Translations under genes and position numbers: made by a program
The notes under the pieces: model-generated
What the model saw: the letters and a program-made list of their open reading frames with translations, nothing else
What the model was told of the DNA's origin: nothing
Databases searched by the model: none
Shown: piece by piece, positions 18,103-36,328 of the stretch
Numbering within the stretch: position 1 is the stretch's first letter
How the letters are laid out: each line of letters opens with the position of its first letter
From: Arcobacter nitrofigilis DSM 7299
GTDB taxonomy: Bacteria; Campylobacterota; Campylobacteria; Campylobacterales; Arcobacteraceae
Reading direction: 5' to 3'
DNA length: 64,000 bases
Assembly: GCF_000092245.1 (NCBI RefSeq)
Contig: NC_014166.1
Span: 2,542,001 to 2,606,000, forward strand

Positions 18103-18103
18103 T

Positions 18104-18463: not shown

Positions 18464-18479
18464 TCAAATTTCCTTATTT

Positions 18480-19379
18480 TTAATTCTTTGAATAAAGAGC
18501 TTGCCAATAGTGACTAAATGGCTTTGCCCAAGATTCGGATTTAACTTCCCATTGTTCACTTGGTTTATACTCTTTTACAAAGTTTAAAGAATGTTTATTG
18601 ATATCAAGATTTGAATCAATATTTAATATTGATTTTAAGATTCCATTCTGGAGTGCTTGTTCAATAATCTTTTTTCCTTGAGTATGATTGTCAAGAGATT
18701 TATCCAGATATTTTCCAACTGGATTTTTTGTATAAAAGTATTGAACACTTTTATCAATAAGTGATAAATAATTGTATACTACAGCTTCATGCATTTCTGC
18801 AAATGAATCTATATTTATAGCTAAATCATGCACACCTATTTCATAACCATCAAGTATATCAACTGAAACGAAATTTATTTTTGCAAACTTGTCAGAAGGT
18901 AATACCTTTTTCAAATATCTTTGAGATATAGCCATTGTATCTTTTAAATCAATAATTGTGTAACTTTTAATATCAAAATTAGATAGAATGGTGTGTGCTG
19001 TCCTTCCATAGCCAGCACCTATTTCAAGTATTTTTTTATCATTTAGATTAATACTATTATCTAAAAAAGAAATTTCGTATACTGCCTGTAAATAGTCCAA
19101 ATCTATATCTTCATCGTTGTATTGAATGCAAAATGGTTGACCAAAATTTCTATTCTTGACTTTCTTGATTTTTTCTACCTCATTATCGCTTAAAGAAGAA
19201 GCCAGATTATAAAGAAGTGTTTTTAAAAACCTTACTCCATTTATTTCAGGATTAAACATAGAAATCTTATAATTCACAGAACTACTTCTGAAGTTTTCAA
19301 CTAATTCATCTAACTGTCCCTCATTAACAATATTTTTATTAATATCACTCCAAAATTCATTACTTTTAAATTTTTCCAT
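18480..19379 (-). CDS. Putative sugar O-methyltransferase (NanM/TIGR04371-like)
   Basis: A 299-residue methyltransferase with SAM motif E-I-G-A-G-Y-G-R-T at 119-127 and the following T-I-I-D-L strand. The C-terminal S-F-A-E-M-H-E segment around residue 190 and the W-x-x-x-S-E-S-W region near the end recall the putative sugar O-methyltransferase group TIGR04371. The long N-terminal helical region (1-110) is also typical. It sits between the ketoisomerase and an SDR with spacings of 16 bases and 1 base. O-methylation of a glycan sugar is the likely role. Family recognition is from memory of motifs and moderately sure. Confidence 0.65.
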   Translation of the reverse strand: MEKFKSNEFWSDINKNIVNEGQLDELVENFRSSSVNYKISMFNPEINGVRFLKTLLYNLASSLSDNEVEKIKKVKNRNFGQPFCIQYNDEDIDLDYLQAVYEISFLDNSINLNDKKILEIGAGYGRTAHTILSNFDIKSYTIIDLKDTMAISQRYLKKVLPSDKFAKINFVSVDILDGYEIGVHDLAINIDSFAEMHEAVVYNYLSLIDKSVQYFYTKNPVGKYLDKSLDNHTQGKKIIEQALQNGILKSILNIDSNLDINKHSLNFVKEYKPSEQWEVKSESWAKPFSHYWQALYSKN

Positions 19380-19380
19380 T

Positions 19381-20364
19381 TTATTCCTTAATTAACTTTT
19401 TAAAATTATTCATAGTTTTTTCAATACCAGACTCTAAATTAACTTTTGCTTTCCAATTGGTTTCACTACAGAAGCAACTACTGTCCGCAATAAAATTTCT
19501 ATATTCTATATCAGATATTTTTGTAGGCATACTAACAGATTCAATTAAAACATTATTACTTACAATTTTCTGACTTTTTTTCACTATTATGTCAAATGCA
19601 TTTTTAATACTTTTTTTAATTCCAGTCCCTAAAACGTAACATTTTCCATTAGTTTCATTATCAATATGGAAATAGGCATGTGCAAAGGCTGAAATAACAT
19701 CATCAATATATATATAATCTCTTAAGAACTCCCCACTTCCATATAGTGTCAAATTTTCTCCATTTAATGCTTTTTTAATCATCAAGTTTAAAATACCTCT
19801 ATCTGAACTACTACTATTAACTCCAGGTCCATAAACATTTGATAACCTAAGGATACATCCCTTAATAATATTTTTTTTAGCATAAAATTTTATATATTGT
19901 TCAATTGTCAATTTATGTATATCATAAATTGTTATTGGATTATCTTTAAAAGTTTCATTCACAGGAAGCTTCTCAACCAATCCACAAATAGTTACTGCAC
20001 TTGAAAATATTAGTGTTGGTTTAGTAGAAAGTTTTTCACATAATGAAAGTAACTTAACAATAGGAGAAACTGAATCTTCATAATCTTTTAAAATATCTTT
20101 TTCTGCAGTATACGTACTTGTTTGAGCAGAAAAATAAAAAATTACATTACTTCTTCGTACTGCATCAATATATTCTTTACTATTAAAGTTTAATTCTATA
20201 TCTTCAACATTTGCAATTGTTTTTCTTATGGGTGAAAAAATTTTAGGGTCTCTTCCTATACGTATAATATTACAATACTTATTTTTTAAATAATTGACAA
20301 AACTAGATCCAATATAACCTCTAGCACCTATAACCATGATAGTTTTATTTTCAAAACTTCTCAT
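19381..20364 (-). CDS. NAD-dependent epimerase/dehydratase (SDR)
   Basis: A 327-residue SDR with GARGYIG at 13-19 and Tyr147-x3-Lys151; the usual S-S-A-V-T segment precedes the Tyr. The D-Y-I-Y-I-D-D-V motif near residue 211 is typical of nucleotide-sugar epimerases. It overlaps the upstream methyltransferase by four bases. Together with the SDR at 17167-18102 it gives this module two oxidoreductases but no clear RmlD, so one of them could reduce the 4-keto sugar formed by RfbB/RfbC. Specific activity is not predictable. Confidence 0.75.
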   Translation of the reverse strand: MRSFENKTIMVIGARGYIGSSFVNYLKNKYCNIIRIGRDPKIFSPIRKTIANVEDIELNFNSKEYIDAVRRSNVIFYFSAQTSTYTAEKDILKDYEDSVSPIVKLLSLCEKLSTKPTLIFSSAVTICGLVEKLPVNETFKDNPITIYDIHKLTIEQYIKFYAKKNIIKGCILRLSNVYGPGVNSSSSDRGILNLMIKKALNGENLTLYGSGEFLRDYIYIDDVISAFAHAYFHIDNETNGKCYVLGTGIKKSIKNAFDIIVKKSQKIVSNNVLIESVSMPTKISDIEYRNFIADSSCFCSETNWKAKVNLESGIEKTMNNFKKLIKE

Positions 20365-21113
20365 TTAACTCTTTTAAAAACTAAATTTTTGCCATACTTA
20401 ATTCGAAATTCTTCTGGAAAATTATTTTGAGGATAGTGCTTATTCACTTGTAAAATATTAGCTTGAAAATTATTTTTCAATATCAATTCATATCCAAATT
20501 TTTTCAAAACAGTTAAAATATCTTCAAGTTTAAAAAAAGTATGTGCAATTTTCGATTCATAGTAATTTTGTAAACTAACATACGTATGCTTTATATTTCC
20601 AGCTGGCAAATCCGTAAAAATAAAATATTGTGCATTGTATTTGGATAATAAGGAAATTAAAGATTCCCAATCATCGATATATTGCAAAGATGAACTTATA
20701 TGAACGATATCAACATCATTTGTTTCAGGTAATGTCGTGGAAAAATTAATATGAGCATCTTTTTCAAATATTTTCTTAGCAGCACAAACATTTTCATGTC
20801 CTTCAACTACCCAAAAGTCTAAGCCTGTTGATTGAGGTAAAGTATGAACTAAAGGAACATATGTATTCCCCATACCACCACCAAAATCAAGTACTTTTAA
20901 ACTTTTCTTTTCAGAATATACAATAGATGCAATAGTATACAATGGGATATTTTCAAATACATAGTTTTCTGTTCTTTTAGCTTGTTTTAAGACATCTTTA
21001 ATCTTTAAAACACTTTTTTGCACCCAAGTTTCACTTTCAAACCCTGAACCAATAGAAGGTGCATCATCAAAATCATTATATATCCCTTCCCAAACATTAA
21101 ATTCTTGTGACAT
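20361..21113 (-). CDS. Methyltransferase-like protein, TIGR04325 type
   Basis: A 250-residue protein with a SAM-binding motif V-L-D-F-G-G-G-M-G-N at 74-83 and N-terminal W-E-G-I-Y-N-D-F at 8-15, both typical of the TIGR04325 (LIC12133-like) putative methyltransferases described from Leptospira surface-glycan loci. The sequence H-I-S-S-S-L-Q-Y-I-D-D-W in the middle is the post-II region of the same fold. It is coupled to the aminotransferase upstream (one-base gap) and the SDR downstream. Methylation of an amino sugar is plausible, but no member with a proven acceptor is known to me. Confidence 0.65.
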   Translation of the reverse strand: MSQEFNVWEGIYNDFDDAPSIGSGFESETWVQKSVLKIKDVLKQAKRTENYVFENIPLYTIASIVYSEKKSLKVLDFGGGMGNTYVPLVHTLPQSTGLDFWVVEGHENVCAAKKIFEKDAHINFSTTLPETNDVDIVHISSSLQYIDDWESLISLLSKYNAQYFIFTDLPAGNIKHTYVSLQNYYESKIAHTFFKLEDILTVLKKFGYELILKNNFQANILQVNKHYPQNNFPEEFRIKYGKNLVFKRVK

Positions 21114-21114
21114 T

Positions 21115-22203
21115 CTAAGACTCCTTAACTTCTAAACATTTAGTTGATATATATTTAATGTCTTTTTCTGAAAGTTCAGGATACATTGGTAGAGATAATA
21201 TTTCGCCAGCAATATTTTCAGTACAATTCAAATCATGATTAATTGTAAAAGCTTCCTGTAAATGAACAGGTTTTTCATAATGTATCATTGCTAATATATT
21301 TTTAGATTTTAAATACTCTTTTAATTGATTACGATTTTTTAAACGAACAACAAAAAGATGAAAAGAATGATAACAATTATCTCTAACTTTTGGTAGAATG
21401 AGAGAACTGTTTTTTAAAGCCTCATAATATAACTTTGCAATATCATTACGTTTTTTTGTATCTTGTTTTAGGTATTTTAATTTTACTCTGAGTATTGCAG
21501 CTTGTAATTCATCTAATCTTGAATTATACCCACTAAATTCACTATCACGATTTTCATCCCAACCATATTGTCTTAGTTTTAATAATTTATTATATAATTT
21601 TTCACAATTAGTTGTAATTGCTCCACCATCACCAATAGCACCCAAATTTTTCGTAGGGAAAAAACTAAAACAACCTAAAGTTCCAATACTTCCTAATTCT
21701 TTTCCTTTATAGCTTGCCCCACTTGCTTGTGCACAATCTTCAATAATATCAATATTATTTTCATTTGAGATCTTTATTAAAGCATCCATATCACAAGGTT
21801 GCCCATAAATATGAACAGCAATAATTGCTTTTGTTTTATTTGAAACTCTTTTTTTAACTTCTTCTATATCTATTGTAAAATACTCTTTTTCAATATCCAC
21901 CATGATAGGAGTTGCCCCAGTTGCCTTTATAGCAGATACTGTTGCTGTTGCAGTGTGAGAAACAGTTATAACTTCATCCCCCGTGCCAATATTTAAAGCT
22001 TTTAACGCCAAGAATAATGCATCAGTACCACTTGCGACACTTATTGTATATTTCGTTCCTACAAAATTTGAAAATTCATTTTCAAATAATTTTACTTCTT
22101 GACCTAAAATATACCAACCACTTTCTAACACTTTATTAATAGCATTTTGGATTTCAGTTTTATGTGTTAAATATTGTTCTTTAGGATTAGCACATAAAAT
22201 CAT
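21115..22203 (-). CDS. fdtB: DegT/FdtB-like dTDP-3-keto-6-deoxyhexose aminotransferase
   Basis: A 362-residue PLP aminotransferase of the DegT/DnrJ/EryC1/StrS family. Lys185 in F-F-P-T-K-N-L-G is the expected Schiff-base lysine, Asp156 in E-D-C-A-Q holds the PLP ring nitrogen, and G-T-D-A-L is at 59-63. Size and motifs agree with FdtB/QdtB, which aminate C3 of the keto sugar made by FdtA. The FdtA-like gene is four genes further along the same operon. Product: dTDP-3-amino-3,6-dideoxyhexose, probably then N-acetylated or N-methylated. Confidence 0.8.
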   Translation of the reverse strand: MILCANPKEQYLTHKTEIQNAINKVLESGWYILGQEVKLFENEFSNFVGTKYTISVASGTDALFLALKALNIGTGDEVITVSHTATATVSAIKATGATPIMVDIEKEYFTIDIEEVKKRVSNKTKAIIAVHIYGQPCDMDALIKISNENNIDIIEDCAQASGASYKGKELGSIGTLGCFSFFPTKNLGAIGDGGAITTNCEKLYNKLLKLRQYGWDENRDSEFSGYNSRLDELQAAILRVKLKYLKQDTKKRNDIAKLYYEALKNSSLILPKVRDNCYHSFHLFVVRLKNRNQLKEYLKSKNILAMIHYEKPVHLQEAFTINHDLNCTENIAGEILSLPMYPELSEKDIKYISTKCLEVKES

Positions 22204-23426
22204 TAATCTATAACCTTAACATCTGGCACATACATAATCCATTTTATGCCATTAGCTTCCATATACTCTTTTTCTTTTTCCATAATCTCTTTTGCATGAT
22301 TCCAAGCAAAGAGAAGTACATAATCAGGTTTACTATCTTTAAATTTTTCATAAGGTATTACAGGAATATGTGCTCCTGGTGAAAACTTATTATGTTTAGT
22401 AGGTGTTGTATCACAGATAAATTCTAAGTGTTCAGGTGTTATTCCAAAAAAGTTTGTCACTGTAGTACTTTTTGAAGTTGCTCCATAAGCAACGACTTTT
22501 TTATTTTTCTCTTTAAGTTCATTTAAAAGTTTCATTAAATCATCTTTTACAATATTTACTTTTCGAGTAAAATTATTATATGCTTCAATATTATCCAATC
22601 CTAACTCTTTTTCTTTTTGAATTTGATTTTGAACATTTATAGAAACTTCTTTTCTACCTTTATGTGCCAATGTATATCTCATTGAACCACCATGAGTAAC
22701 CTGAGGTTCAACATCTATTACTTCTAATCCATGTATATTCGCTAAATAACTCACTGACATCACTGAAAATAAAAACGTATGCTCATCATAAATTTGATCA
22801 AAAGATGCTTTTTGAACAATATCAGCAGCATAAGGGTCTTCAAAAGAGAAGATACCATCATCTTTTAAAAGTTTCTCAATACCTTCAAAAATTGAGTGCA
22901 TGTAAGGAATATGACACATAACATTTGCACTTAATATTGCATCTGCTTTTCCATATTTTTCAATTACATCTAAAGCCAATTTAGAATCAAAAAATTCTGA
23001 AGTAACATTTATTCCTTTACTTCTAGCAATATCTGCAACATTTTTTGATGGTTCTACACCCAAATGAGGAATGTTTTTATTTAAAAAATTCTCTATCATG
23101 ATTCCATCATTACATCCAATTTCGACAACCAATGAATCTTCTGCTAATAGTTGTTTTTCAATCACAGAATATGCAAAATTTTTGAAATGCTCTTTCATAT
23201 AGTCAGATGTTGAAGAAAAAAATGCATAATTTTCATGAAACATTTGTTCCCTATCTGGTTGTTCTAATAATTGTACCATTTTACAATTTGGACAAAAACC
23301 AACTTCCATTTTAAAAAAATACTCATTATTAAATTGACTTTCCGTCAAAAAACCATTTGCTATTGGCTGTTGACCAAAATCAATAAATTTTTCTACTTTT
23401 AAATCACATATTAAACATTGTGCCAT
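22203..23426 (-). CDS. Zn-containing sugar C-methyltransferase (TcaB9/EvaC-like)
   Basis: A 407-residue three-domain methyltransferase. An N-terminal zinc finger has Cys4, Cys7, Cys45 and Cys48; the SAM domain has E-I-G-C-N-D-G at 102-108; the C-terminal domain carries V-V-A-Y-G-A-T-S-K-S. The Y-D-E-H-T-F segment matches the Glu-His catalytic pair of dTDP-sugar C3-methyltransferases such as TcaB9 and EvaC. These add a methyl to carbon 3 of a 4-keto sugar. It follows rfbB by 65 bases and precedes the aminotransferase, suggesting a branched deoxysugar. Some family members in Gram-negative loci have unknown acceptors, so the chemistry is inferred. An AAGGAAA ribosome site precedes the ATG. Confidence 0.78.
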   Translation of the reverse strand: MAQCLICDLKVEKFIDFGQQPIANGFLTESQFNNEYFFKMEVGFCPNCKMVQLLEQPDREQMFHENYAFFSSTSDYMKEHFKNFAYSVIEKQLLAEDSLVVEIGCNDGIMIENFLNKNIPHLGVEPSKNVADIARSKGINVTSEFFDSKLALDVIEKYGKADAILSANVMCHIPYMHSIFEGIEKLLKDDGIFSFEDPYAADIVQKASFDQIYDEHTFLFSVMSVSYLANIHGLEVIDVEPQVTHGGSMRYTLAHKGRKEVSINVQNQIQKEKELGLDNIEAYNNFTRKVNIVKDDLMKLLNELKEKNKKVVAYGATSKSTTVTNFFGITPEHLEFICDTTPTKHNKFSPGAHIPVIPYEKFKDSKPDYVLLFAWNHAKEIMEKEKEYMEANGIKWIMYVPDVKVID

Positions 23427-23491
23427 CGATTAATTTTCCTTACATTTTCTTGAACATTAGAATATCAAATTTTTCATTAATAGTCATTTAA

Positions 23492-24499
23492 TTATTTATA
23501 CTTTTTTAAATACCACTCAATAGTTTTTAAGATACCATTGTCAAAACTCTCATCAACTTTCCATCCTAATTCTATTTCAAGTTTTTTTGCATCAATTGCA
23601 TATCTTCGGTCATGACCTGCTCTATCTTCTACAAAAGTAATAAGTTTTTTATAAGAGTCATTTTTAGGAACTTTAGTATCAAGAATTTCACAAATAGTAT
23701 TTACTATTTGAAAATTTGTTTTTTCATTTCCTCCACCAATATTATAGGTTTCACCTTTTTTACCAAAGTGAAATACTAAATCTATACCTTTACAATGGTC
23801 TAATACATATAACCAATCTCTAATATTCTTTCCATCACCATAAATTGGGATTGGAGTCCCTTTTAATGCATTCCTTATAATTGTTGGTATTAGTTTTTCA
23901 TCATCTTGTTTTGGTCCATAGTTATTGGAACAATTTGTTATAACAGTATTTAATCCATAAGTTTCTTTATAGCTCCTTATTATCATGTCACTTGATGCTT
24001 TTGAAGCACTGTAGGGAGAGTTTGGGGAGTATGGAGTTTCTTCAGTAAATAAACCTGTTTCATCAAGTGTTCCATAAACCTCATCTGTTGAAATATGATG
24101 GAAACGACACCCTTGATATTTTTTTTTATAAGTAAAAGGTTTATCCATCCAATAATTTTTTGCAACATCTACTAATGTAAAAGTTCCATGTACATTTGTT
24201 TGAATAAATATAGCTGGATTTTTAATTGAATTATCTACATGAGATTCAGCTGCAAAATGTATCACGCCCCGAATATCATACTCATCAAATATAAACTCAA
24301 CAAGTTCTCGATTACAAATATCCCCTTTGATAAATTTATATCTAGGATTTTCATTGCATTCATTTAAATTATTTAAATTTCCAGCATATGTAAGTAAATC
24401 TAAATTAATTAAATTATACTCCTTATATTTTTCTAAAAAATATGGGACAAAGTTACTTCCAATAAAGCCAGCTGTACCAGTTAATAATAATGTTTTCAA
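23492..24499 (-). CDS. rfbB: dTDP-glucose 4,6-dehydratase RfbB/RmlB
   Basis: A 335-residue dehydratase with GTAGFIG at 8-14, the diagnostic Thr138-Asp139-Glu140 triad in H-I-S-T-D-E, and Tyr163-x3-Lys167 in Y-S-A-S-K. It forms dTDP-4-keto-6-deoxyglucose from dTDP-glucose in the cytoplasm. rfbC lies directly upstream with a four-base overlap and rfbA before that. The product feeds the FdtA/FdtB-like pair further down and possibly RfbC. A 65-base gap follows it, the first such gap in this stretch, holding only a 15-codon open frame that may be a gene relic. Confidence 0.95.
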   Translation of the reverse strand: MKTLLLTGTAGFIGSNFVPYFLEKYKEYNLINLDLLTYAGNLNNLNECNENPRYKFIKGDICNRELVEFIFDEYDIRGVIHFAAESHVDNSIKNPAIFIQTNVHGTFTLVDVAKNYWMDKPFTYKKKYQGCRFHHISTDEVYGTLDETGLFTEETPYSPNSPYSASKASSDMIIRSYKETYGLNTVITNCSNNYGPKQDDEKLIPTIIRNALKGTPIPIYGDGKNIRDWLYVLDHCKGIDLVFHFGKKGETYNIGGGNEKTNFQIVNTICEILDTKVPKNDSYKKLITFVEDRAGHDRRYAIDAKKLEIELGWKVDESFDNGILKTIEWYLKKYK

Positions 24500-25065
24500 A
24501 TCATTTCCTCATATAAGAAGTTATTGTCAATTTGAGCAAGCATTGGAGCACTATTATCTTTATCTGCAATAATTAATTCACTTTTATCTATATTAAGTTT
24601 TATATTAATTGTACTATCCATAAAATTCAATATTCTGTCATGATTAGGAGAATATAACTCATCCATTTTATATAAAATAGTTACATTATCAGTAAGTGTC
24701 AAATAACCATGTGCAAAGCCTTTTGGTATTAGCATTTGTTTATGATTATCAGAAGATAATATTTGAGAAACATATTGTCCATAAGTTGGTGATTTTTTCC
24801 TTATGTCTATTACATAATCTATAATTTCACCAGAAACTACTCTTACTAATGTAGTTTGTGATTTTGGATTCATCTGATAATGGAAACCTCTAAACGTATG
24901 TTTGTATTTATTATATGATTGATTGTCTTGAATAAAATTATAATCTAATCCATTTTCTAAAAATTTTCTTTTAGAATAACTTTCATAAAAAAAGCCTCTT
25001 TCATCATTAAATACGTGTGGATTTAAAATAAGTACTCCATCAAGTTTTGTTGATTCAACCTTCAT
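24496..25065 (-). CDS. rfbC: dTDP-4-dehydrorhamnose 3,5-epimerase RfbC/RmlC
   Basis: A 189-residue cupin with [10 protein letters not shown] at 21-30, R-G-F-H62-Y-Q and [10 protein letters not shown], the marks of RmlC; His62 is the catalytic base position. It epimerises dTDP-4-keto-6-deoxyglucose to the L-lyxo isomer. No clear RmlD reductase gene is seen in the window, so dTDP-L-rhamnose cannot be assumed; the epimerised keto sugar may instead go to one of the SDRs or to the C-methyltransferase. It overlaps rfbA and rfbB by four bases each. Confidence 0.94.
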
Positions 25066-25943
25066 TTATTATCCTTTAATATTCTATTTAAATATTTACC
25101 GTAAGAATTTTTTTGTAATGATTTAGATAAAACTAAAAGTTTTTCTTTTGTGATATACCCCATTAAATATGATATTTCTTCAAGACAAGCCACTTTTAAA
25201 CCTTGTCTTTTTTCTATTGTTTCAATAAATTGAGAAGCTTCGAGTAAAGATTCGTGAGTACCAGTATCTAGCCAAGCAAATCCTCGTCTCATGATTTCTA
25301 CCTTTAATTTATTCTTTAATAAATATTCATTATTGACTGATGTTATTTCTAATTCACCACGTGAACTAGGTATTATGCTTTTAGCAATTTTAATTACATC
25401 ATTTGTATAAAAATATAAACCTACCACAGCAAAATTACTTTTAGGTTTTTTAGGTTTTTCTTCTATACTCAAAGCATTCCAACTTTTGTCAAATTCAACA
25501 ACACCATACCTTTCTGGATCATTTACATAGTAACCATAAACTACAGATTTGTTTTCTTTTTCTACTATTCTTATACTATTTTGTAACATAATTGTTAAGT
25601 CTTGTCCATAAAATATATTATCTCCAAGTATTAAACATACATTGTCATCTTTTATAAAATCTTCACCAATTATAAATGATTGTGCCAAGCCATCTGGAGA
25701 TTCTTGAACTTTATATTGTAAATTTATACCTAATGTACTCCCATCACCTAAAAGTTCAATAAATCTTTCGTTATCATCTGGAGTTGTTATAATCAATATA
25801 TCTTTTATACCAGCTAACATTAATACAGATAAGGGATAGTAAATCATTGGCTTATCATATACAGGTAAAAGTTGTTTACTAATAACCTTTGTAATAGGAT
25901 ATAGTCTTGTACCACGGCCTCCCGCTAGTATTATCCCTTTCAT
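25062..25943 (-). CDS. rfbA: Glucose-1-phosphate thymidylyltransferase RfbA/RmlA
   Basis: A 293-residue nucleotidyltransferase with the G-G-R-G-T-R-L-Y-P motif at about 8-16, the [11 protein letters not shown] loop, and G-D-N-I-F-Y-G near 107. It makes dTDP-glucose from glucose-1-phosphate and dTTP, the entry step of the dTDP-sugar branch. Length is normal. Its start overlaps the end of the radical SAM gene by four bases, so both are translated from one message. Confidence 0.95.
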
Positions 25944-27016
25944 TTTAATTCCGCAGTCCCATATCCACTACATAATTTACAAATATTTATATTTTTTTGA
26001 TTTGTATGTATTTTATTTCTAAAATTTTGATATTTTTTACCATTCCAAATATCTTCAAATTCTTCCTCTAATATATTTCCCATGGTTTCTTTACCACAAG
26101 CATCATGACAACAAGGAGAGATATCTCCATTTGCCATAATATTAAGAGAATAGTATATCCATGGACAGTCATTATTAGGGATAACTCTTCTCTGAAGTTT
26201 TCCCTCTTTAAATTTTTCAGGGTCATATATCCAATTATCTTTATTAGTTGGTAAATATTGAATACCTTGCTCAACTGTTCTTACACAGGGATCAATTATA
26301 TTAAAACTATCCACTCCAATTTCTTTACACCATTGTATGAACTCATCTACTTGATGTTCATTATGTTTCATCAAAATATATCCAGCTTCAAGATGCACTT
26401 TACTTTTATGCTTTTTTTTAAGCTCAATAGTCTCTACCAAATTATTTCTTATATTTTCTAAATTAGTATTAACTCTATATATTTCATGGGTTTCTTGTGT
26501 TGTTCCACCCATTTGAAAAGAGACTAAATCTATACCACTATCAATAATACCTTGAGGAATATTTTTGACATCTCCATTGGTACAAGTAGAAATGAAGCTT
26601 ATTCCTTTTTCTTTTGCATACTTAATTTGATTTACCCATTCTTTATTTAAAAAAGGTTCACCCATGAAATAGTACATCAAAGTATTTGTGTAAGGTCCTA
26701 TTTTATCTATAATAATTTTAAAATCATTAAAAGATAAAAATGCTTTTTTCCTTTCCAATATATCCGCACCAGTTTCACATACTGGACATTTTGCATTACA
26801 AACATTAGTTGGTTCAATAGTAATATGAACAGGCTTTCCTAAAATTTTACTATCTTTTTTAATTAATGAGTATGTTGACTTAATATGTTCTTTACTACCT
26901 TTTTTACCTTGAAGTAATCCACTAACACCTTTTTTTAGCCCTAATAAATTTCTAGTTAATAAATACAAATTATCATACTGCTTAATTCTATTTTTTAATT
27001 TATCTATAGTTTTCAT
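25940..27016 (-). CDS. Radical SAM/SPASM-domain protein
   Basis: A 358-residue radical SAM enzyme. The [4Fe-4S] motif Cys73-x3-Cys77-x2-Cys80 follows I-E-P-T-N-V, and the C-terminal part from about residue 285 carries several cysteines (C-P-W near 285, S-P-C-C-H-D-A-C near 300, and I-C-K-L-C near 345), as in SPASM proteins with an auxiliary cluster. Such proteins recur in O-antigen loci but without a proven reaction; candidates are sugar epimerisation, dehydration or modification of a peptide or lipid carrier. The ATG at 27014-27016 directly follows the TGA at 27017-27019 of the upstream decayed gene, so it was probably translationally coupled to that gene. No precursor peptide gene is seen nearby. 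Confidence 0.8.
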
Positions 27017-27421
27017 TCAAATCTCTTTCTTATACTTTTTATTTTTTCCTTTGGTTTACCAATAAAACCATAATATTCTACCACATTAACTTTAAGCTTT
27101 CCATTACCAGTAATTACAATAATACTACCATTATCATTTATATTTTGTCCTACTATTGTTTTGATAAATAAAGCATATATGAAGAATCCGTACCTCCACT
27201 AACACCTACAATACAATCATATTTTTTACCAATTCCTGCTTTTTTTATTTTCCTAATAATTTTTGAAAACTCTTATTCACATTTTACTGTGCCTGTGCCA
27301 TATTCATTTTTAAATTTTCAAGTTGATGACAATAATTACAAATTCCATTCTCATCAAAGCTAATAGATGCAACTCTTTCATCATAAATGCACTTTGAACA
27401 TATTTTATATTGTTGTAATAT
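27017..27421 (-). pseudogene. Decayed WbpG/PseA-type N-acetyl sugar amidotransferase
   Basis: No intact frame exists in these 400 bases, but two pieces of an amidotransferase are readable on the minus strand. From 27421 to about 27285 the translation includes I-C-S-K-C-I-Y-D-E and F-D-E-N-G-I-C-N-Y-C, the N-terminal zinc-like motif of WbpG/PseA; it then stops. In a second frame near 27190-27270 it reads Y-D-C-I-V-G-V-S-G-G-T-D-S-S, the ATP-pyrophosphatase loop, and stops again after M-L-Y. The expected start codon is ATA instead of ATG. The last stretch, 27017-27160, is open in a third frame and may be the end of this or another deleted gene. The family makes acetamidino sugars with HisH/HisF partners, which are absent here. 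Confidence 0.8.
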
Positions 27422-28076
27422 TTAACCTTTTTAAAAATTTTGCAGGATTTCCAACTACAATACTATTTTTTTCTACATCTTTTAAGACTACACTTCCCAT
27501 TCCAATTAATGCATTCTTATTTATAATTATATTTCCAATAATAGTACTTCCACTTCCTATATAACTACTTTCTTTTATAACAACCCCTCCTGATACACAC
27601 ACTCCACTGGTTATTGATACATAATCTTCAATAATATCATCATGATTTATTACACAGTTTGGTAAAATCATAACATGATTTCCTATTTTAACATTTGATG
27701 CTATTGTAGTATTTTGCAATATAACTGAGCCTTTACCAACAGTTGCTAACTTTGAAACAGATGCTGTTGGGTGAATAATAGTTTCAAACCATTCTAAAGA
27801 AATATTTAATTTATTTAAAATAACTTCTTTTTTCCAAAAATTATTTGGACTTCCAATGCCATTGACAAAATAAGTACTTTTAAACTCTTTAGCTTTATTT
27901 AGTCCACCCAAAACTTTTATACCGTAATACTCTTTTCCTAACTTACTTATATCATCATCTAGAAATCCAATTATTTTATATGTTTGTCTTATTAAATTAA
28001 TTTCATTAATAGCATCTAATATGTCTATACAATTTCCACCTGTGCCCAAAATAATTATTTTTTTTTCATTCATCAA
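27405..28076 (-). CDS. NeuD/PglD-family sugar O/N-acyltransferase
   Basis: A 223-residue protein with an N-terminal nucleotide-sugar-binding PglD_N-type fold (K-I-I-I-L-G-T-G-G-N at 5-14) and a left-handed beta-helix of hexapeptide repeats from about residue 105 to 215. The N-H-D-D-I-I-E-D segment near 148 holds the likely catalytic His, as in PglD. It uses acetyl-CoA or another acyl-CoA to acylate an amino or hydroxyl group of a sugar. It follows AsnB paralogue 3 after a 101-base gap; its own 3' end overlaps the dead amidotransferase. The amino sugar made by the nearby DegT proteins is a reasonable substrate. Confidence 0.82.
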   Translation of the reverse strand: MMNEKKIIILGTGGNCIDILDAINEINLIRQTYKIIGFLDDDISKLGKEYYGIKVLGGLNKAKEFKSTYFVNGIGSPNNFWKKEVILNKLNISLEWFETIIHPTASVSKLATVGKGSVILQNTTIASNVKIGNHVMILPNCVINHDDIIEDYVSITSGVCVSGGVVIKESSYIGSGSTIIGNIIINKNALIGMGSVVLKDVEKNSIVVGNPAKFLKRLNITTI

Positions 28077-28177: not shown

Positions 28178-30178
28178 TTATCCATATATATTATACCACT
28201 CTTCAAAATTAAGTAAACTCCAAACAAAAAGTCTTCTATTCTTTTCACCATTTAGATGTTCATATATAAGCTTTTGAGTAGCATCTTTGTCCATATATCC
28301 ATATATATTAGCATCATCTCTTAACAATTTTGATTTTACAAATTCAATACTTTCACCTTTAAACCAACTGTTATCTGGACTACTAAACCCTTGCTTTACA
28401 GCTTTATGAATATCTTCAGGAATATATTTACTCATAGCATGCCTTAGTATCACTTTACCATCATTAGTCTTTTGCATCTTACATATTTCATTTTCATCCA
28501 TTTTAATAATTTTATGTAAATCCCCTAATTTATATTTTGCAGGAATTTTTTGTGCAAAATTGACCAAATCATTATCAAGAAAGGGCACTCTTGTTTCAAG
28601 ACTATGAGCCATAGAGAGTTTATCATCTACGACAAGTAGTCCATGTAAAAATGTCTTTGCTTCAAAATAAAGGGAATGATTAATATACTCTTCTGGTGTT
28701 TGGTTTTTTATAGGTCTTTTAAATACATTTGCAAAAATATCTCTTGTCCATACATCTTTGGTATCACTTAAAATTGGAGCAAATACATTTTGTATTTCTT
28801 TATTAGGGATTAGTCTTTTCCAAAAACTATAATATTTATCTATGTAGTTGTCAAAATTATAATTGTTCACTGCTTTATAATATCTCCACGGATAGCCTGC
28901 AAAAAGCTCATCTCCCCCTGCACCACTTAGTACAACTTTTACAAACTTACTTGCAAGTTTTGCAGCATAGTAGTTAGGGTAACTTTGTCCAACTCTTGGT
29001 TCCTCAAGATGATAGGCAAAATCCTTCATACATCTTTCCATATCTCCTGACTTTAATACCATCTCATAGTGTTCTGTTTTAAACTTATATGACATATATT
29101 CAGCTTTTGCTCGCTCATCAAAGCTAAGTTCCATTCCACTTGCACTGCGCAAATCAAATCCCACTGTAAATGTTTTTAAAAAACTATTATTTTTTTGGAA
29201 GTGATTAGAAGCAATAGCTGTTATAGAACCACTATCCATACCTCCACTTAAATAACTTCCTACTTGAACATCTGCTATTAGTTGTCTTTGTACTGCTTGT
29301 GTAAAAAGTCTATCAAGTTCTTCTATATATTCTCTCTCATCTTTAATAGTCTCAGGCTCACTAAAATTAAAATCCCAATATTGAGTTTTTTCTGTCTGTT
29401 TGGTCAGTAAATCTATCTCAAAATAATGCCCAGCTTCAAGGATTTGTATATCTTTATGTAGTGTTTTATTTGTAAATATATTTTGAAATGTAAAGTATTC
29501 TAGAAGTGCCTCTTTATCTACTTCACTTTTGTAATCTTTATACTCTAAAATAGATTTTATCTCACTTGCATATATAAAAGTTTTATCTTCAGTTATATGA
29601 TAGTAAACTGGTTTTATACCATATCGATCTCTACAAAGATAAAACTTTTTTTGAAAATTATCATAAAGCGAAAATGCAAACATACCATTAAATCTTTTGA
29701 TACAATCTATTCCCCACTCTATATATGCATATATTATTACTTCTGTATCAGTATGACTTTTAAATCTATGCCCTAATTTTTCAAGTTCAATTCGTAATTC
29801 TTTAAAGTTATAAATTTCACCGTTATAAGCAATCCAAATATTTTTTGATAAATCACTCATAGGTTGATGTCCTGCATAACTCACATCAAGTATAGAAAGT
29901 CTTCTATGTCCCATATAAAGATCATAGTCATGAGAGTGTAATTCTCGCTGTGAGGAATTCGATTCTATAGTAGGAAGCATATCATCTATATTTTTAAAAT
30001 TTTCATCTGTTAAATTTTGATAAAAAGATATTTTTTTATTATGTCTTGCACCAGTATGAAAACAAAGATACCCTGCATCATCAGGACCCCTATGTGCAAT
30101 TTTATCTGCCATAGGTTTTACATAATTAACATCTATAGATATTTTGTTAAGAGATAATGCCCCTACTATTCCACACAT
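28178..30178 (-). CDS. Asparagine-synthase-type glutamine amidotransferase (paralogue 3)
   Basis: The longest of the three AsnB paralogues, 666 residues. Cys2 follows the initiator Met, N-G-E-I-Y-N lies at about 119-124, and the synthetase loop is SGGMDS at 311-316. Compared with the other two it has an insertion of about 45 residues after G-P-D-D-A-G (roughly 37-85) and another near residue 575, which mark a distinct subfamily. The aminotransferase gene ends one base before it starts. In this position it may amidate a hexuronic acid made by the wbpA/B/D/E enzymes or act with the adjacent DegT and SDR. No asparagine requirement can be inferred. Confidence 0.9.
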   Translation of the reverse strand: MCGIVGALSLNKISIDVNYVKPMADKIAHRGPDDAGYLCFHTGARHNKKISFYQNLTDENFKNIDDMLPTIESNSSQRELHSHDYDLYMGHRRLSILDVSYAGHQPMSDLSKNIWIAYNGEIYNFKELRIELEKLGHRFKSHTDTEVIIYAYIEWGIDCIKRFNGMFAFSLYDNFQKKFYLCRDRYGIKPVYYHITEDKTFIYASEIKSILEYKDYKSEVDKEALLEYFTFQNIFTNKTLHKDIQILEAGHYFEIDLLTKQTEKTQYWDFNFSEPETIKDEREYIEELDRLFTQAVQRQLIADVQVGSYLSGGMDSGSITAIASNHFQKNNSFLKTFTVGFDLRSASGMELSFDERAKAEYMSYKFKTEHYEMVLKSGDMERCMKDFAYHLEEPRVGQSYPNYYAAKLASKFVKVVLSGAGGDELFAGYPWRYYKAVNNYNFDNYIDKYYSFWKRLIPNKEIQNVFAPILSDTKDVWTRDIFANVFKRPIKNQTPEEYINHSLYFEAKTFLHGLLVVDDKLSMAHSLETRVPFLDNDLVNFAQKIPAKYKLGDLHKIIKMDENEICKMQKTNDGKVILRHAMSKYIPEDIHKAVKQGFSSPDNSWFKGESIEFVKSKLLRDDANIYGYMDKDATQKLIYEHLNGEKNRRLFVWSLLNFEEWYNIYG

Positions 30179-30179
30179 A

Positions 30180-31370
30180 TTATTTTAAAGCCTCTTTTAT
30201 ATTTGTAATCACATATTCAAACTCTTCTTTAGTCATACCTGCATATAAAGGAAGAGCAATAGAAAGTCTATCTGCGGCATAACTTATTAAAAAATCTTCA
30301 TCTTTAAAATTATTTTTATTTTTATAGTAACCTAATGTATGAACTGCATGAGTACCTTGTCTAGTTGCAATAGCCATTTCTTCAAGTTTTTCCATAAAAA
30401 TGTTTCTTTTTATATTGATTCGATCAATTTGTTCTTTAGTAAGATTTGAAATATCTTCACCATTTGTAAAAATACATACATATGACTGATACCCATGCTT
30501 ATAGTTTTCTTGAACATATGGAAGTTCAAGTTCTTTTATATCTTTTAAAGAGACATCATATTTTGCAGCTACTTCTCTTCTCCCATTCATAATATAATCT
30601 TTTTTATCCATCTGACAAACACCGAGGGCTCCCTGCATATCTGTCATACGATAATTATATCCTCTCACTGTAAAATCTGGTAATAAAGATCCACCTTTTT
30701 CTTTGTGCCTTTGAAGGTCTGATTTAGCAGCACCATGGTCTTTTAATTGTGATACTTTATTTGCAATATTCTCATCATTCGTAATTAGCATGCCACCTTC
30801 ACCAGTACAAATTGATTTTCTAGGATGAAAAGAGAAACAACCACAATCTCCAAAAGTACCAGAGTGTTTATCTCCAATCCAGCCATCAAATCCACAAGCA
30901 CTATCTTCAATAACTTTTAAATTATATTTATTAGCAAGTTTCATAATATAAGGCATATTTGCACACAAACCAAAAAGATTTACAGGCATAATAGCTTTTA
31001 TAGAGCTATCATTTTTGATAAGTTCTTCAAGTTTTGTTTCATCTATATTAAATGTTTTTAAATCAATATCACAAAAAACTACTTCTGCACCAGTATATTC
31101 AACAGCATTTGCACTTGCAACATAAGTAAAAGAAGGAACAATAACTTTATCACCTTTTGTAATATCCATAGCTTCAAGTCCTAAATGTAAAGCTGTTGTA
31201 CAATTACTTGTTGCATGAGCAAATTTACTTTTTGTAAAATCTGCGAACATTGTTTGAAATTTTGATACATTTGGTCCTTGTACAACCCAGCCTGTTTCAA
31301 GAGGTTTTACAATAGCTTCTTTTTCTTCATCACCAAAAATTGTTTTTGTAATAGGTATATTCATTTTCAT
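30180..31370 (-). CDS. DegT/DnrJ-type nucleotide-sugar aminotransferase
   Basis: A 396-residue PLP aminotransferase with Lys185 in F-H-P-R-K-S-I, Asp156 in E-D-S-A-C and S-N-C-T-T-A-L near 55-61. The F-H-P-R-K version is typical of enzymes that aminate 4-keto sugars, such as perosamine synthase and PglE relatives, unlike the F-F-P-x-K form of the other two aminotransferases in this locus. Its partners are an SDR upstream (four-base gap) and AsnB paralogue 3 downstream. The predicted product is a 4-amino sugar nucleotide; the exact sugar is unknown. Confidence 0.85.
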   Translation of the reverse strand: MKMNIPITKTIFGDEEKEAIVKPLETGWVVQGPNVSKFQTMFADFTKSKFAHATSNCTTALHLGLEAMDITKGDKVIVPSFTYVASANAVEYTGAEVVFCDIDLKTFNIDETKLEELIKNDSSIKAIMPVNLFGLCANMPYIMKLANKYNLKVIEDSACGFDGWIGDKHSGTFGDCGCFSFHPRKSICTGEGGMLITNDENIANKVSQLKDHGAAKSDLQRHKEKGGSLLPDFTVRGYNYRMTDMQGALGVCQMDKKDYIMNGRREVAAKYDVSLKDIKELELPYVQENYKHGYQSYVCIFTNGEDISNLTKEQIDRINIKRNIFMEKLEEMAIATRQGTHAVHTLGYYKNKNNFKDEDFLISYAADRLSIALPLYAGMTKEEFEYVITNIKEALK

Positions 31371-31374
31371 TTAT

Positions 31375-32358
31375 TTAACCTCTTATCCCTTTTTCTTCTC
31401 TCCAAGCAATTAACTTTTTAAGTCCATCTTCTAAAGAGTATTTGTATTTAAATCCCAATTCTTTCTCTGCTTTTTCTCTTGAACCGATTCTATTTTGAAC
31501 TAATTGTCTTGCATCATCTTCACTATATGGTACAAAATTGATTTCTAAATCAGAATTTTTAAGTTTTAACATTGTATCGCAAAGTTGTTTTATAGTTGTT
31601 TGTACTTCTGTTCCGACATTATAGTATCCAAGTTTTACATCTGATTTTGCAGCTGCTACATTACATCTTGCAATATCTTCTACATAAATAAAATCATATG
31701 CTTGAGAACCATCACCATTTACACTTGGTGCTTCATTTCTGTCTATTTTATTTAAAACTATTGGTACAACTCCACTATAAACCGCATGTTGATCTTGACC
31801 TGGGCCATAAACATTCATATACCTAAGACCTACTATTTCTAAACCATATCGGTCATTATATGCTGTACACATAGCTTCACCCGCAATTTTTGTAGCACCA
31901 TAGAAATTTTTATTGTTAAAAGGATGATCTTCTGTCATAGGAACTTGTACTGCATCACCATATACAGATGCAGAAGAGCTGTAAATAAGTTTTTTTACTT
32001 TATGTTTTACACAGGCTTCTAGTACATTAAAAGTTCCTGCAATATTTACATCAAATGCAGTTCTTGGAAAATCCTTACAATGAAGTAACCACATAGCGGC
32101 TAAATGAAAAACATAATCTACATCATCCATAGCTTTATCTAAAATATCTAATTCTCTTACATCTCCACCATAAGGGAAAATAGAACATCGTGGGTCTTTT
32201 AAACTCTCTTCAAGATTTTCCATCTTTCCCCTAGTAAAGTTATCATAAATAATCACTTCTTTTACATTTTCTTTTAGTAACTCACTTACAACAAACCCAC
32301 CAATAAATCCTGCAGCACCTATAACTAAAACTTTTGCATTATCTAATTTATTTGACAT
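31375..32358 (-). CDS. UDP-glucose 4-epimerase-like SDR
   Basis: A 327-residue extended SDR with GAAGFIG at 14-20, S-S-S-A-S-V-Y-G near 127-134 and Tyr153-x3-Lys157. The G-D-G-S-Q-A-Y-D-F-I-Y-V-E-D motif near residue 216 is typical of UDP-HexNAc epimerases and dehydratases. It is spaced 33 bases from the WbpE-like gene upstream and four bases from the aminotransferase downstream, with which it probably works. An epimerase producing the galacto isomer is the simplest reading. Confidence 0.78.
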   Translation of the reverse strand: MSNKLDNAKVLVIGAAGFIGGFVVSELLKENVKEVIIYDNFTRGKMENLEESLKDPRCSIFPYGGDVRELDILDKAMDDVDYVFHLAAMWLLHCKDFPRTAFDVNIAGTFNVLEACVKHKVKKLIYSSSASVYGDAVQVPMTEDHPFNNKNFYGATKIAGEAMCTAYNDRYGLEIVGLRYMNVYGPGQDQHAVYSGVVPIVLNKIDRNEAPSVNGDGSQAYDFIYVEDIARCNVAAAKSDVKLGYYNVGTEVQTTIKQLCDTMLKLKNSDLEINFVPYSEDDARQLVQNRIGSREKAEKELGFKYKYSLEDGLKKLIAWREEKGIRG

Positions 32359-32391
32359 AATTCTTTCCTTTTTTATATTTTTATTTTTATT

Positions 32392-33525
32392 TTATAAATT
32401 ACCAACAATAAATTCAATTTGTTCATCATTAAGATAAGAATTCATAGGTAAACTCATAATTTCTTGTGATATAATTTCTGAAATAGGCAAGTCCCCTTTT
32501 TTATATCCAAGATAAGAAAAACACTCCTGTAAGTGTAAAGGCATTGGATAATGTACTGCTGTTGGTATTCCTTTTGATTTAAGGTAATCTTGTATACTCA
32601 TTAAGTTTGCCTTTTGATTTTTATCAAAAGTTTGCCTTAATTCCTCTCTATTTTTTACTCTAATTGAATATTGTGCCCAAACTGATGTAGCTCTTTTATC
32701 TATGATTGGCAGAACTAAGTTAATTTTCGACTTTAAAACTTCTGTATATTTTCTTGCCACTTTTTGTCTTAAAGTTAAATCTTTTTCATAATATTTTAAT
32801 TTAACATTTAAAACAGCTGCTTGAAGAGTATCTAATCTTCCACCTATTCCAATATACTGATGATGATATCTTTTTGATTGTCCATGTAATCTTAATGATT
32901 TCATTTTAGTGGCAAGATTTTCATCATTTGTAAAACATGCTCCTCCATCTCCATAGCACCCTAATGGTTTTGCAGGGAAGAAAGAAGTAGTAGAAATATC
33001 TCCTAAGTTTGAATCTGTAATGCCATTAAAAGTGGAACCAAAACTTTGAGCACCATCTATAATTACTTTTAGATTATATTTATTAGCAATAGTTTGGATT
33101 TGATCCATATCTGCTGGCTGACCATAAAGAGATACTGGAATAATAGCTTTTGTTTTTGGTGTGATTTTATCTTCTATCAAAGCAGGGTTTATATTATATG
33201 TCTTTTCATCAATATCAATAAATACAGGAGTTGCACCTAAAAAAGCTATTGTTTCAGCTGTTGCTATAAAAGTAAATGGAGTAGTTATTACTTCATCTCC
33301 TGGTTTTATATCTAAAGCCATCATAGCAAGAAGTAAAGCATCTGTTCCACTTGAGCATGAAATAGCATATTTTGCTTTTGTAAAGTTTTGAAGGTTTTCT
33401 TCTAGTTCTTGAACTTCTTCACCCATTATAAAATTACAATTTCTAGCCACTTTTAATATAGCTTCTTCTATTTCATCTTTATAAAGATTATGTTGATGTT
33501 GTAAGTTTGCAAAATCTATCGTCAT
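32392..33525 (-). CDS. wbpE: UDP-2-acetamido-3-amino-glucuronate aminotransferase WbpE
   Basis: A 377-residue DegT-family aminotransferase with Lys186 in F-F-P-A-K-P-L-G-C-Y-G-D-G-G and Asp157 in I-D-G-A-Q, matching WbpE closely; its Lys is at position 185 in Pseudomonas. It aminates C3 of UDP-3-keto-GlcNAcA using glutamate, giving UDP-GlcNAc3NA. wbpD, wbpB and wbpA lie directly upstream in order with gaps of two or three bases, so the four-step pathway is complete and co-transcribed. Confidence 0.9.
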   Translation of the reverse strand: MTIDFANLQHQHNLYKDEIEEAILKVARNCNFIMGEEVQELEENLQNFTKAKYAISCSSGTDALLLAMMALDIKPGDEVITTPFTFIATAETIAFLGATPVFIDIDEKTYNINPALIEDKITPKTKAIIPVSLYGQPADMDQIQTIANKYNLKVIIDGAQSFGSTFNGITDSNLGDISTTSFFPAKPLGCYGDGGACFTNDENLATKMKSLRLHGQSKRYHHQYIGIGGRLDTLQAAVLNVKLKYYEKDLTLRQKVARKYTEVLKSKINLVLPIIDKRATSVWAQYSIRVKNREELRQTFDKNQKANLMSIQDYLKSKGIPTAVHYPMPLHLQECFSYLGYKKGDLPISEIISQEIMSLPMNSYLNDEQIEFIVGNL

Positions 33526-33527
33526 TT

Positions 33528-34106
33528 CTACTCTTCTATTAAAATTAAATTATCATTTTTAATTTGATATTTGGTATTATCAAATTTATCTACAGCTACA
33601 CTATTTTCATCAAATTTTAGTGTATTTCCTGCTTTACTTACCCATCCAATTTGATGAGCTGGAACTCCAACCATTAATGCATATGGTTTTACATCTTTAT
33701 TTACAACTGCCCCACTTCCAATTAAAGCATATTCTCCAATTGTTACACCACATATAATTGTAGCATTTGCACCTACTGAACACCCTTTTTTTAAAAGAGT
33801 TTTTTTAAACTCTTCACGTCTTATAATAAAAGCTCTTGGGTTTGTAACATTTGTAAAAACCATAGATGGTCCTAAAAATACATCATCTTCTATTTCAACA
33901 CCTTCATAAATTGAAATATTATTTTGTACTTTTACTCCATTACCTATATTAACTTTAGGTCCTACTACACAGTTTTGTCCAAAAGAACAGTTCTTTCCAA
34001 TATTTGAACCAGATAGGATATGAGAAAAATGCCATATTTTTGTATCATCACCAATACTTACATTATTATCAACATATGATGATTCATGAGCAAAGAATTT
34101 AGACAT
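33528..34106 (-). CDS. wbpD: UDP-GlcNAc3NA N-acetyltransferase WbpD
   Basis: A 192-residue left-handed beta-helix acetyltransferase, the usual size for WbpD. Hexapeptide repeats run through residues 10-145, including I-W-H-F-S-H-I near 24-30 and the N-P-R-A segment near 93. It acetylates the 3-amino group of UDP-GlcNAc3NA to give UDP-2,3-diacetamido-2,3-dideoxy-D-glucuronic acid. It sits between wbpB and wbpE with minimal spacing. A C2-epimerase of the WbpI type, which would form the manno isomer, is not found in this window. Confidence 0.9.
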
Positions 34107-34109
34107 ATA

Positions 34110-35078
34110 TTATCCTAATACTTTTTTACAGAAAGGATGATATTCACCTTCTAATCCAAGAGGGGTTAGTTTTCTTATCTCTGAAACTATATTTATAGAA
34201 TTTCTAGCTTCATCAAGTCCAAATCCTTTGCCACTTAAGATATGCTCATAAGATCTTGTATGCAAGTTTGTAAATCCTTCAGAAAATTCAAACTCTTCAC
34301 CATCAACTGTTATACTTCTAAAAGTAGTTTTTCCTGTAGCTTTTATATCTTCTGGTATATAATTATAATTTACGGACAAGAACCATCTTACATTTGCATT
34401 TTTTAGTTTCATAAATCCTGCATTTGCATCAGGATTTTTTATATGAACTATATTTTCTTCAATTGGTCCAAATATCCAAGAAAGCATATCAAAGAAGTGA
34501 ACACCAATATTTGAAGCTATTCCACCTGATTTTGATTCATCACCTTTCCAAGATACAAAGTACCATTTACCTCTACTTGTTAGGTAAGTTAAATCTATAT
34601 CATATATTTTATTTGGATTTTGTTCTAGTTCTTTTGATATCTTTTCTTTTAATGCTATTATTGACTCATGAAGTCTTAGTTGTAGTATATTATAAACTTT
34701 TTTGCCTGTTTCTTGTTCTATTAGTTTAAGTTGATCTATATTATGTGGATTTAGAACTAAAGGTTTTTCACAAATTCCATATGCACCACTTTTAAGTGCA
34801 AATCTAATATGAGAATCATGCAGATAATTTGGAGTAGTTATAGCAATATATTCTATTTTTTTATTTCCATCCCTATGCCATTTATCAACAAATCTATCAA
34901 ATCTCTCAAATTCTGTAAAAAAAGATGCATTAGGGAAATTACTATCCATAATTCCAATACCATCATATGGATCTAATGCAGCTACTAGCTCATTTCCTGT
35001 TTCTTTTATCGCTTTCATATGTCTTGGGGCTATATAGCCACTTGCTCCTATTAGGGCAAAATTTTTTTTGTTTTGCAC
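34110..35078 (-). CDS. wbpB: UDP-GlcNAcA 3-dehydrogenase WbpB
   Basis: A 322-residue Gfo/Idh/MocA oxidoreductase with the NAD-binding G-A-S-G-Y-I-A-P-R-H segment at 13-22, I-C-E-K-P-L near 113-118 and the S-G-G-I-A-S-N-I-G-V-H-F-F-D-M motif near 183-197. The A-P-R-H variant is characteristic of WbpB-type proteins. It oxidises C3 of UDP-GlcNAcA and, in the known system, recycles NADH with 2-oxoglutarate together with WbpE. It starts two bases after the wbpA stop. Confidence 0.92.
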   Translation of the reverse strand: MQNKKNFALIGASGYIAPRHMKAIKETGNELVAALDPYDGIGIMDSNFPNASFFTEFERFDRFVDKWHRDGNKKIEYIAITTPNYLHDSHIRFALKSGAYGICEKPLVLNPHNIDQLKLIEQETGKKVYNILQLRLHESIIALKEKISKELEQNPNKIYDIDLTYLTSRGKWYFVSWKGDESKSGGIASNIGVHFFDMLSWIFGPIEENIVHIKNPDANAGFMKLKNANVRWFLSVNYNYIPEDIKATGKTTFRSITVDGEEFEFSEGFTNLHTRSYEHILSGKGFGLDEARNSINIVSEIRKLTPLGLEGEYHPFCKKVLG

Positions 35079-35080
35079 TT

Positions 35081-36328
35081 TTATAGTCTCCCATCACTAT
35101 TTTTTAATATAGATTTAATATCATAAATAACTTGATTTTCATTTTTAAAAATTAAAGTTTTATATTTATCATGTGATACAGCCATTACTATTGATTCATA
35201 ATCATCAAAATTCACATCATTAATTAAGTTTAAATTATATTCATGTTTTACTTCATTATTATCAGCCCAATAATCAGATACGGACACATTACACCCAAAT
35301 TCTTTAAGCTCTTCTATTACATCTATTACTCTTGAATTTCTTATATCTGGACAATTTTCTTTAAATGTAATACCTAATACTAGTACTTTTGACCCTTCTA
35401 TCTTATGACCTTTTTTTATCATTAGTTTTATTACTTGATTTGCAACATAAATTCCCATATTATCATTTAATCTTCTTCCCGCTAGTATAATTTCTGGATT
35501 ATATCCTACTTGCTGTGCTTTATGAGTCAAATAATATGGGTCTACTCCTATACAATGTCCTCCTACTAAACCTGGTCTAAATGGTAAAAAGTTCCATTTT
35601 GTACCAGCAGCTTCTAGAACATCGTTTGTATTGATTCCTAATTTATTAAAAATAATTGCTAATTCATTTACAAATGCAATATTTATATCTCTTTGAGAGT
35701 TTTCTATTACTTTTGCTGCTTCTGCAACTTTAATAGTCGTAGCTAAATGAGTACCTGCAGTTATAATACTTGCATATAAATCATTCACTTTTTTACCAAT
35801 TTCAGGAGTACTTCCAGAAGTTACTTTAAGTATTTTAGTTACTGTATGCTCTTTATCCCCTGGATTGATTCTCTCTGGAGAATATCCACAAAAGAAATCT
35901 TCATTAAATTTCATTTTTGAAATTTTTTCAAGTACTGGTACACACTCTTCTTCTGTAGCTCCTGGATAAACTGTAGATTCATAAATAACTATATCATCTT
36001 TTTTTAATACTTTTCCTATAGTTTCACTAGCTTTTATTAGTGGAGTTAAATCAGGTCTTTTATTTTTATCTATTGGCGTAGGAACAGTAACAATATAAAT
36101 ATTACAATCTTTGATGTCATCTATATTTAAAGAAAACTTCATACCATTTTCCAAAGCTTCTTTTACTTGACTTTCAGTTAATTCTAAAGTTCTATCATAA
36201 CCAGATGATAACTCATCAATTCTCCATTGAGATATGTCAAAACCAACTACTTCATATTTTTCTGAAAAAGCATGGGCTAAAGGAAGGCCAACATACCCAA
36301 GACCTATTACGCATATTTTATCACTCAT
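35081..36328 (-). CDS. wbpA: UDP-GlcNAc 6-dehydrogenase WbpA (TviB family)
   Basis: A 415-residue nucleotide-sugar dehydrogenase with [10 protein letters not shown] at 8-17, E-S-T-V-Y-P-G near 115, and [12 protein letters not shown] around residue 255, where the Cys is the catalytic nucleophile. The H-C-I-G-V-D-P-Y form is the TviB/WbpA type that oxidises UDP-GlcNAc to UDP-GlcNAcA, and it differs from the Ugd-type gene further upstream. The gene is followed directly by wbpB, wbpD and wbpE. Its start codon is joined to the preceding epimerase stop. Confidence 0.93.

Follow-up and report, generated by a model that had tools for sequence, protein, structure and literature searches.

Amidotransferases of the WbuX/WbpG/NASAT family act on N-acetyl sugars. 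PMC10607449, on the LpNASAT crystal structure, describes them by a tetracysteine motif and an SGGXDS PP-loop. Their genes occur in variable surface-polysaccharide clusters. According to PMC2147049, the O-antigen region of Arcobacter butzleri RM4018 carries two copies of wbpG, hisH and hisF, is found in one of the 12 strains compared, and is hypervariable within the species. A table of Aliarcobacter species shows a patchy presence of hisF2, hisH2, wbpG and wbpI (PMC9235176). Gene remnants are also known to record earlier forms of such clusters; for instance, wzy remnants in the O-antigen clusters of Salmonella groups B1 and D1 mark former types, as described in PMC3715488.

The locus discussed here belongs to a surface-sugar gene cluster of Arcobacter nitrofigilis DSM 7299 and lies in the window, that is, the whole analysed stretch of 64,000 nucleotides. 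The interval 27421-27016 on the minus strand, about 400 bases read in three frames, is a scar in which two truncated, unrelated sugar-modifying genes are fused. The presence of two truncated genes at one place is the reason for reading it as a fusion scar and not as a single gene decaying in place. In it the front quarter of wbuX (wbpG) runs into the final ~46 codons of a gene for a formyltransferase. In the preferred reading, to which we give a probability of roughly 0.88, this scar arose together with the loss of the remainder of wbuX, of hisH and hisF, and of most of the formyltransferase gene, which a single deletion, or an illegitimate join of two differing clusters, would have taken.

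As in the family described in PMC10607449, the tetracysteine motif and the PP-loop are both readable in the relic, but it covers only about positions 2-80 of the 344 in TIGR03573, in two frames, with neither a start codon nor HisH/HisF. With A. butzleri RM4018 the locus shares the gene set and its setting in a surface-polysaccharide cluster; in the region described in PMC2147049 the genes are present, whereas here there are remnants of one of them. The Salmonella wzy case is alike in that there, too, an earlier O-antigen form lost by deletion has left a gene remnant behind. The gene described there (PMC3715488) is a polymerase, while here two sugar-modifying genes are fused in one scar. This kind of scar is already familiar from O-antigen clusters, where such losses are common; the twist is the fusion of two different modifying genes. 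A literature search, judged by titles and the opening lines of abstracts, found no description of this particular scar.

Table 1. Features at and around the scar, with positions counted in the window.
Feature	Position	Strand	Remarks
Radical SAM/SPASM protein, intact	25940..27016	-	358 aa; start overlaps formyltransferase stop
Formyltransferase gene, 3' end	27016..27153	-	last ~46 of ~306 residues; by similarity to intact proteins
Join zone	27153..27178	-	readable as either gene (Y-L-x-K in both); crossover only bracketed
wbuX/wbpG relic, frame b	27156..27305	-	PP-loop SGGTDS; TIGR03573 E 1.4e-11
wbuX/wbpG relic, 5' part, frame a	27308..27421	-	tetracysteine motif CSKC...GICNYC; TIGR03573 E 6.5e-9
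NeuD/PglD-type sugar acetyltransferase, intact	27405..28076	-	TIGR03570 190 bits (cut-off 160.8)
AsnB-type amidotransferase, intact	28178..30178	-	last gene of conserved cassette
Cassette: DegT aminotransferase, NAD-dependent epimerase, wbpE-, wbpD-, wbpB-, wbpA-like genes	30180..36328	-	77-95% to G005, same order

The amidotransferase relic

The front-quarter relic of the WbuX/WbpG-type N-acetyl-sugar amidotransferase occupies 27421-27156, and its start is overlapped by the end of the acetyltransferase gene. From 27406, frame a reads K-I-C-S-K-C...G-I-C-N-Y-C-H-Q-L-E-N-L-K, which fits the family motif CXXC-Xn-[GN]XCXXC. Frame b reads E-Y-G-T-G...S-G-G-T-D-S-S-Y-M-L-Y-L-S-K-Q, with the PP-loop in the expected SGGXDS form, and the WbuX homology stops at S-K-Q. 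In NCBIfam, TIGR03573 was the sole match of frame a and the top match of frame b; when both frames were joined, with X at the stop, the E-value fell to 1.4e-22 over positions 2-79 of 344. The identity of the pieces is thus far beyond chance.

A whole-genome scan with TIGR03573 likewise returned the relic pieces as the best matches (E 3.3e-10 and 4.1e-9), with stops inside each. Four further matches (E 2.5e-4 to 0.38) look like other PP-loop enzymes. In their separate frames the pieces score 40.6 and 37.2 bits against a curated cut-off of 203.2 bits, and no full-length open frame of this genome exceeds that cut-off. The relic is therefore the remnant of a family member, not a working one.

Besides truncation, the wbuX stump is damaged by a frame change, a stop and the lack of a usual start, point decay being minor. 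The frame change falls in a short run of five A, and the one in-frame TAA lies in frame b at 27275-27273. Frame a opens with ATA at 27421-27419, immediately past a stop, and no ATG, GTG or TTG precedes the WbuX homology in that frame. The preliminary description of this DNA had proposed two WbpG pieces in different frames with stops, ATA in place of the expected ATG, and intact AsnB next to the relic. All of these are found at that place on the minus strand, and the WbpG match held in the profile search. Its view of one gene decaying in place does not stand, in that a deletion or a hybrid join appears to have removed the larger part of WbuX and the whole of HisH/HisF.

An A run is a common site of sequencing error, and an error of sequencing or assembly could mimic broken genes. 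This is highly improbable here, in a single-contig genome rated 99.96% complete: what is missing amounts to roughly three quarters of wbuX, the whole of hisH and hisF, and the greater part of the formyltransferase gene, and a base error cannot cause such a loss. A frame change in an A run within a surface-sugar gene also recalls phase variation, by which the gene could be restored. Such a reversible switch is the least credible alternative, with a run of just five A, a stop and a missing start codon in addition, and most of the gene gone.

The search for partners was extended to the whole genome. One HisF above the cut-off, one weaker HisA-like match and a single HisH were found, all far from the relic, so that the HisH/HisF partners of a TIGR03573 member are lacking, as the preliminary description had noted. 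That description had also listed WbpI as missing. An Epimerase_2 search of the genome gave 0 matches, and the WbpI 2-epimerase of the P. aeruginosa O5-type ManNAc3NAmA pathway is indeed absent. This absence is not evidence of loss, because the 29 kb around the intact set of a relative, G005, also contain no WbpI.

The formyltransferase tail

The downstream part of the scar, ~27153-27016, is the end of a second gene, which the preliminary description missed: the WbpG relic that it reported is real but only part of the feature. Frame c is an open stretch of 61 codons whose terminal TGA overlaps the ATG with which the radical SAM gene starts. In an even sample of 397 genomes from the phylum, the tail matches six including its own (G411 71%, G111 68%, G284 58%, and two weak matches with E 0.002-0.003). 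The matches in G411, G111 and G284 are the ends of frames of 312-317 aa with Formyl_trans_N and Formyl_trans_C domains. Against residues 261-306 of the G111 formyltransferase the tail is 70% identical (E 5.9e-13), which gives it the C-terminal homology of this class (PF00551/PF02911). Only these query residues match here, and the Formyl_trans_N catalytic domain is absent. Moreover, the intact G111 gene directly precedes an orthologue of the radical SAM gene (80%), just as the tail does in this cluster. A point against the preferred reading is that frame c alone gives no match in NCBIfam or Pfam, the identity of the tail being drawn from its similarity to intact proteins.

The possibility that 27153-27016 is the C-terminus of WbuX was considered and rejected: intact WbuX orthologues end differently, and no blastp match fell below E 0.7. 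There is no other formyltransferase of the tail type in the genome; the remaining matches are 26% in a 309-aa and 26% in a 191-aa frame, which we presume to be Fmt and PurN.

An open and well-conserved frame of 61 codons might also suggest that the remaining short frames are expressed in a new role, as a small protein or RNA. This is very unlikely: the 61-codon translation contains no methionine, the N-terminal domain of a formyltransferase is missing from the tail, and recency explains the conservation equally well.

A tail-related formyltransferase in G362 (L088 15524-16325) is split over two frames and is another possible broken copy.

Intact counterparts in related genomes

In G005, an intact WbuX-HisH-HisF set (L048 2071-4615) comes after the same cassette, with a single acyltransferase gene between them. 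Its WbuX, at 221.5 bits, exceeds the cut-off of 203.2; its HisF reaches 363.6 bits, against a cut-off of 310, on the model 'AglZ/HisF2 family acetamidino modification protein'. The comparison with relatives that the preliminary description proposed thus yields an intact set in the matching place, with no WbpI nearby. The two loci are alike in the upstream cassette and in WbuX, which is 80% identical to the relic over 83 comparable codons; they differ in that the G005 set is intact and in that the preceding hexapeptide acyltransferase there is not the NeuD/PglD-type gene found here. G111, in turn, has the cassette and, immediately ahead of the radical SAM gene, an intact formyltransferase gene.

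Over the same 83 codons, substitutions between the relic and G005 fall on the three codon positions as 15, 9 and 28 (80% amino-acid identity), and those of the intact G005-G078 pair as 12, 5 and 34 (78%). The relic resembles intact orthologue pairs in this pattern, and the break is therefore taken as recent relative to orthologue divergence, an age estimate that draws on only 83 codons. Close WbuX-HisH-HisF sets occur in three more genomes of the family, G078, G058 and G059 (WbuX 79-88%); the cluster around them is another one, which lacks this AsnB but has a WbpI-like gene.

In the host's family, to which we take A. butzleri to belong, 26 of 104 genomes have a TIGR03573 match above the cut-off; at E up to 1e-5 the number is 36, the relic included. 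Of the three genomes of the genus, G002 carries a copy that is intact and more distant, and G001 lacks the gene. The AsnB of the window occurs in 14 of 397 phylum genomes (E up to 1e-200). Around AsnB in the 13 other genomes, the WbuX set is present in one (G005) and a formyltransferase in nine, G343 having it on a separate contig; three (G403, G199 and G183, the last two with little sequence past AsnB) have neither. An ancestor holding both the WbuX set and the formyltransferase would thus have no observed example. The two occur together in none of the 13, in a comparison where contig or locus ends limit the sequence of G199, G183 and G343, and this counts against the preferred reading.

As the preliminary description stated, wbpA/B/D/E have been kept, in the cassette at 30180..36328; the names follow that description and are presumptive, NCBIfam supporting the protein classes only. 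In a scan of named genomes, AsnB was found at six loci, one of them in Sulfurospirillum arcachonense. The radical SAM protein occurs in two of the 104 family genomes, its own and G072 (51%), and the same kind of scan gave no relative.

In G005 and G111, wbpE and the epimerase gene are separated by the gene of an L-2-hydroxyglutarate-oxidase-like FAD enzyme. It is cleanly missing here, where the 33-base gap (32359-32391) holds no trace of it; nor did the gaps of the window contain relics of other fetched genes. In G261 (L081 2982-3266), the cassette wbpE has shrunk to a frame of 95 aa, which aligns with WbpE over 67 residues, its front and end seemingly joined; a WbpI-like gene follows. This is another truncation in the cassette.

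The join and its possible history

Both genes encode Y-L-x-K at the join, and for this reason the crossover cannot be placed exactly. Near the join, a 12-base word is common to the window and the G111 formyltransferase gene, and an 11-base word to the window and the G284 gene. These lengths are reached by 18 of 67648 and 24 of 68768 position pairs, respectively, and in both cases only at the join. The same measure against G411 gives 1 base. The word is possible microhomology but no proof of it: WbuX orthologues encode Y-L-A/T-K there, and it may lie wholly on the formyltransferase side of the crossover.

The preferred reading has a version that differs from it in history only and does not need one ancestor with both genes. 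A G005-like cluster, with the cassette and the wbuX set, would have been illegitimately joined to a G111-like cluster with the formyltransferase, the radical SAM gene and downstream transferases. On the near side of the join the gene order is that of G005 (77-95%), the genes past it match G111 (radical SAM 80%), and beyond the rml block the same G111 order continues (45%, 61%, 74%, 78% and 57%). The lack of both sets together in any sampled genome and the 12-base word speak for this history as well. The flanks, however, separate the donors poorly, the cassette AsnB being equally close to G111 (89%) and G005 (90%); the shared word may be formyltransferase sequence past the crossover, and for G411 the measure is only 1 base. 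This hybrid origin is tentative and clearly less likely than not. A bolder form, in which one illegitimate join at the short shared word removed both the acetamidino set and the N-formyl step and, with the newly placed acetyltransferase, made a new antigen type at once, is rather doubtful.

Further downstream, an rml and sugar-modification block at 16110-25943 separates the radical SAM gene from a glycosyltransferase, their counterparts adjoining in G111. This block looks like an insertion or exchange.

Predicted consequences for the surface sugar

Judged by their families, HisH/HisF of the intact set in relatives would supply ammonia, and WbuX would use ATP to convert a sugar N-acetyl into an N-acetamidino group. 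The substrate is probably a diacetamido-uronic acid made by wbpA-B-E-D. The chemistry proposed for the family in PMC10607449 is the ligation of ammonia to the sugar N-acetyl with the PP-loop for ATP, and a loss of the acetamidino group is therefore expected.

Given the fusion scar, the strain would no longer amidinate, and its sugar should carry plain N-acetyl groups at that position. Loss of the acetamidino step, which the preliminary description had proposed, is well supported by gene content, with no intact copy or partners in this genome and an intact set in G005. The formyltransferase would have placed N-formyl on an amino sugar, and this step has likely been lost too. Two chemical decorations have thus probably disappeared from the coat of this bacterium. 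The preliminary description attributed a change of surface chemistry to gene decay; the change itself is retained as a prediction, its main cause being more plausibly a deletion or hybrid join, with a minor share for point decay. The NeuD/PglD-type acetyltransferase is a candidate for replacement acylation.

The scar names N-modifications that have probably been lost from a surface sugar and offers a simple glycan prediction. Additionally, it suggests the slot after the conserved AsnB cassette as an exchange site of amidino, formyl and acyl genes.

In some genomes of the family, a WbuX-type domain stands behind an N-terminal class-II glutaminase domain (GATase_6/7), as at L040 733-2580, L051 10435-12474 and L042 1477-3300. 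A literature search found no description of this fusion. HisH2/HisF2 are absent from the 4-kb loci L040-L043, and a HisH-like gene lies ~5 kb from the fusion in L051. The fusions are 608-680 aa long, with sub-threshold TIGR03573 scores of 134-144 bits in the two scanned, and may be HisH/HisF-independent amidotransferases.
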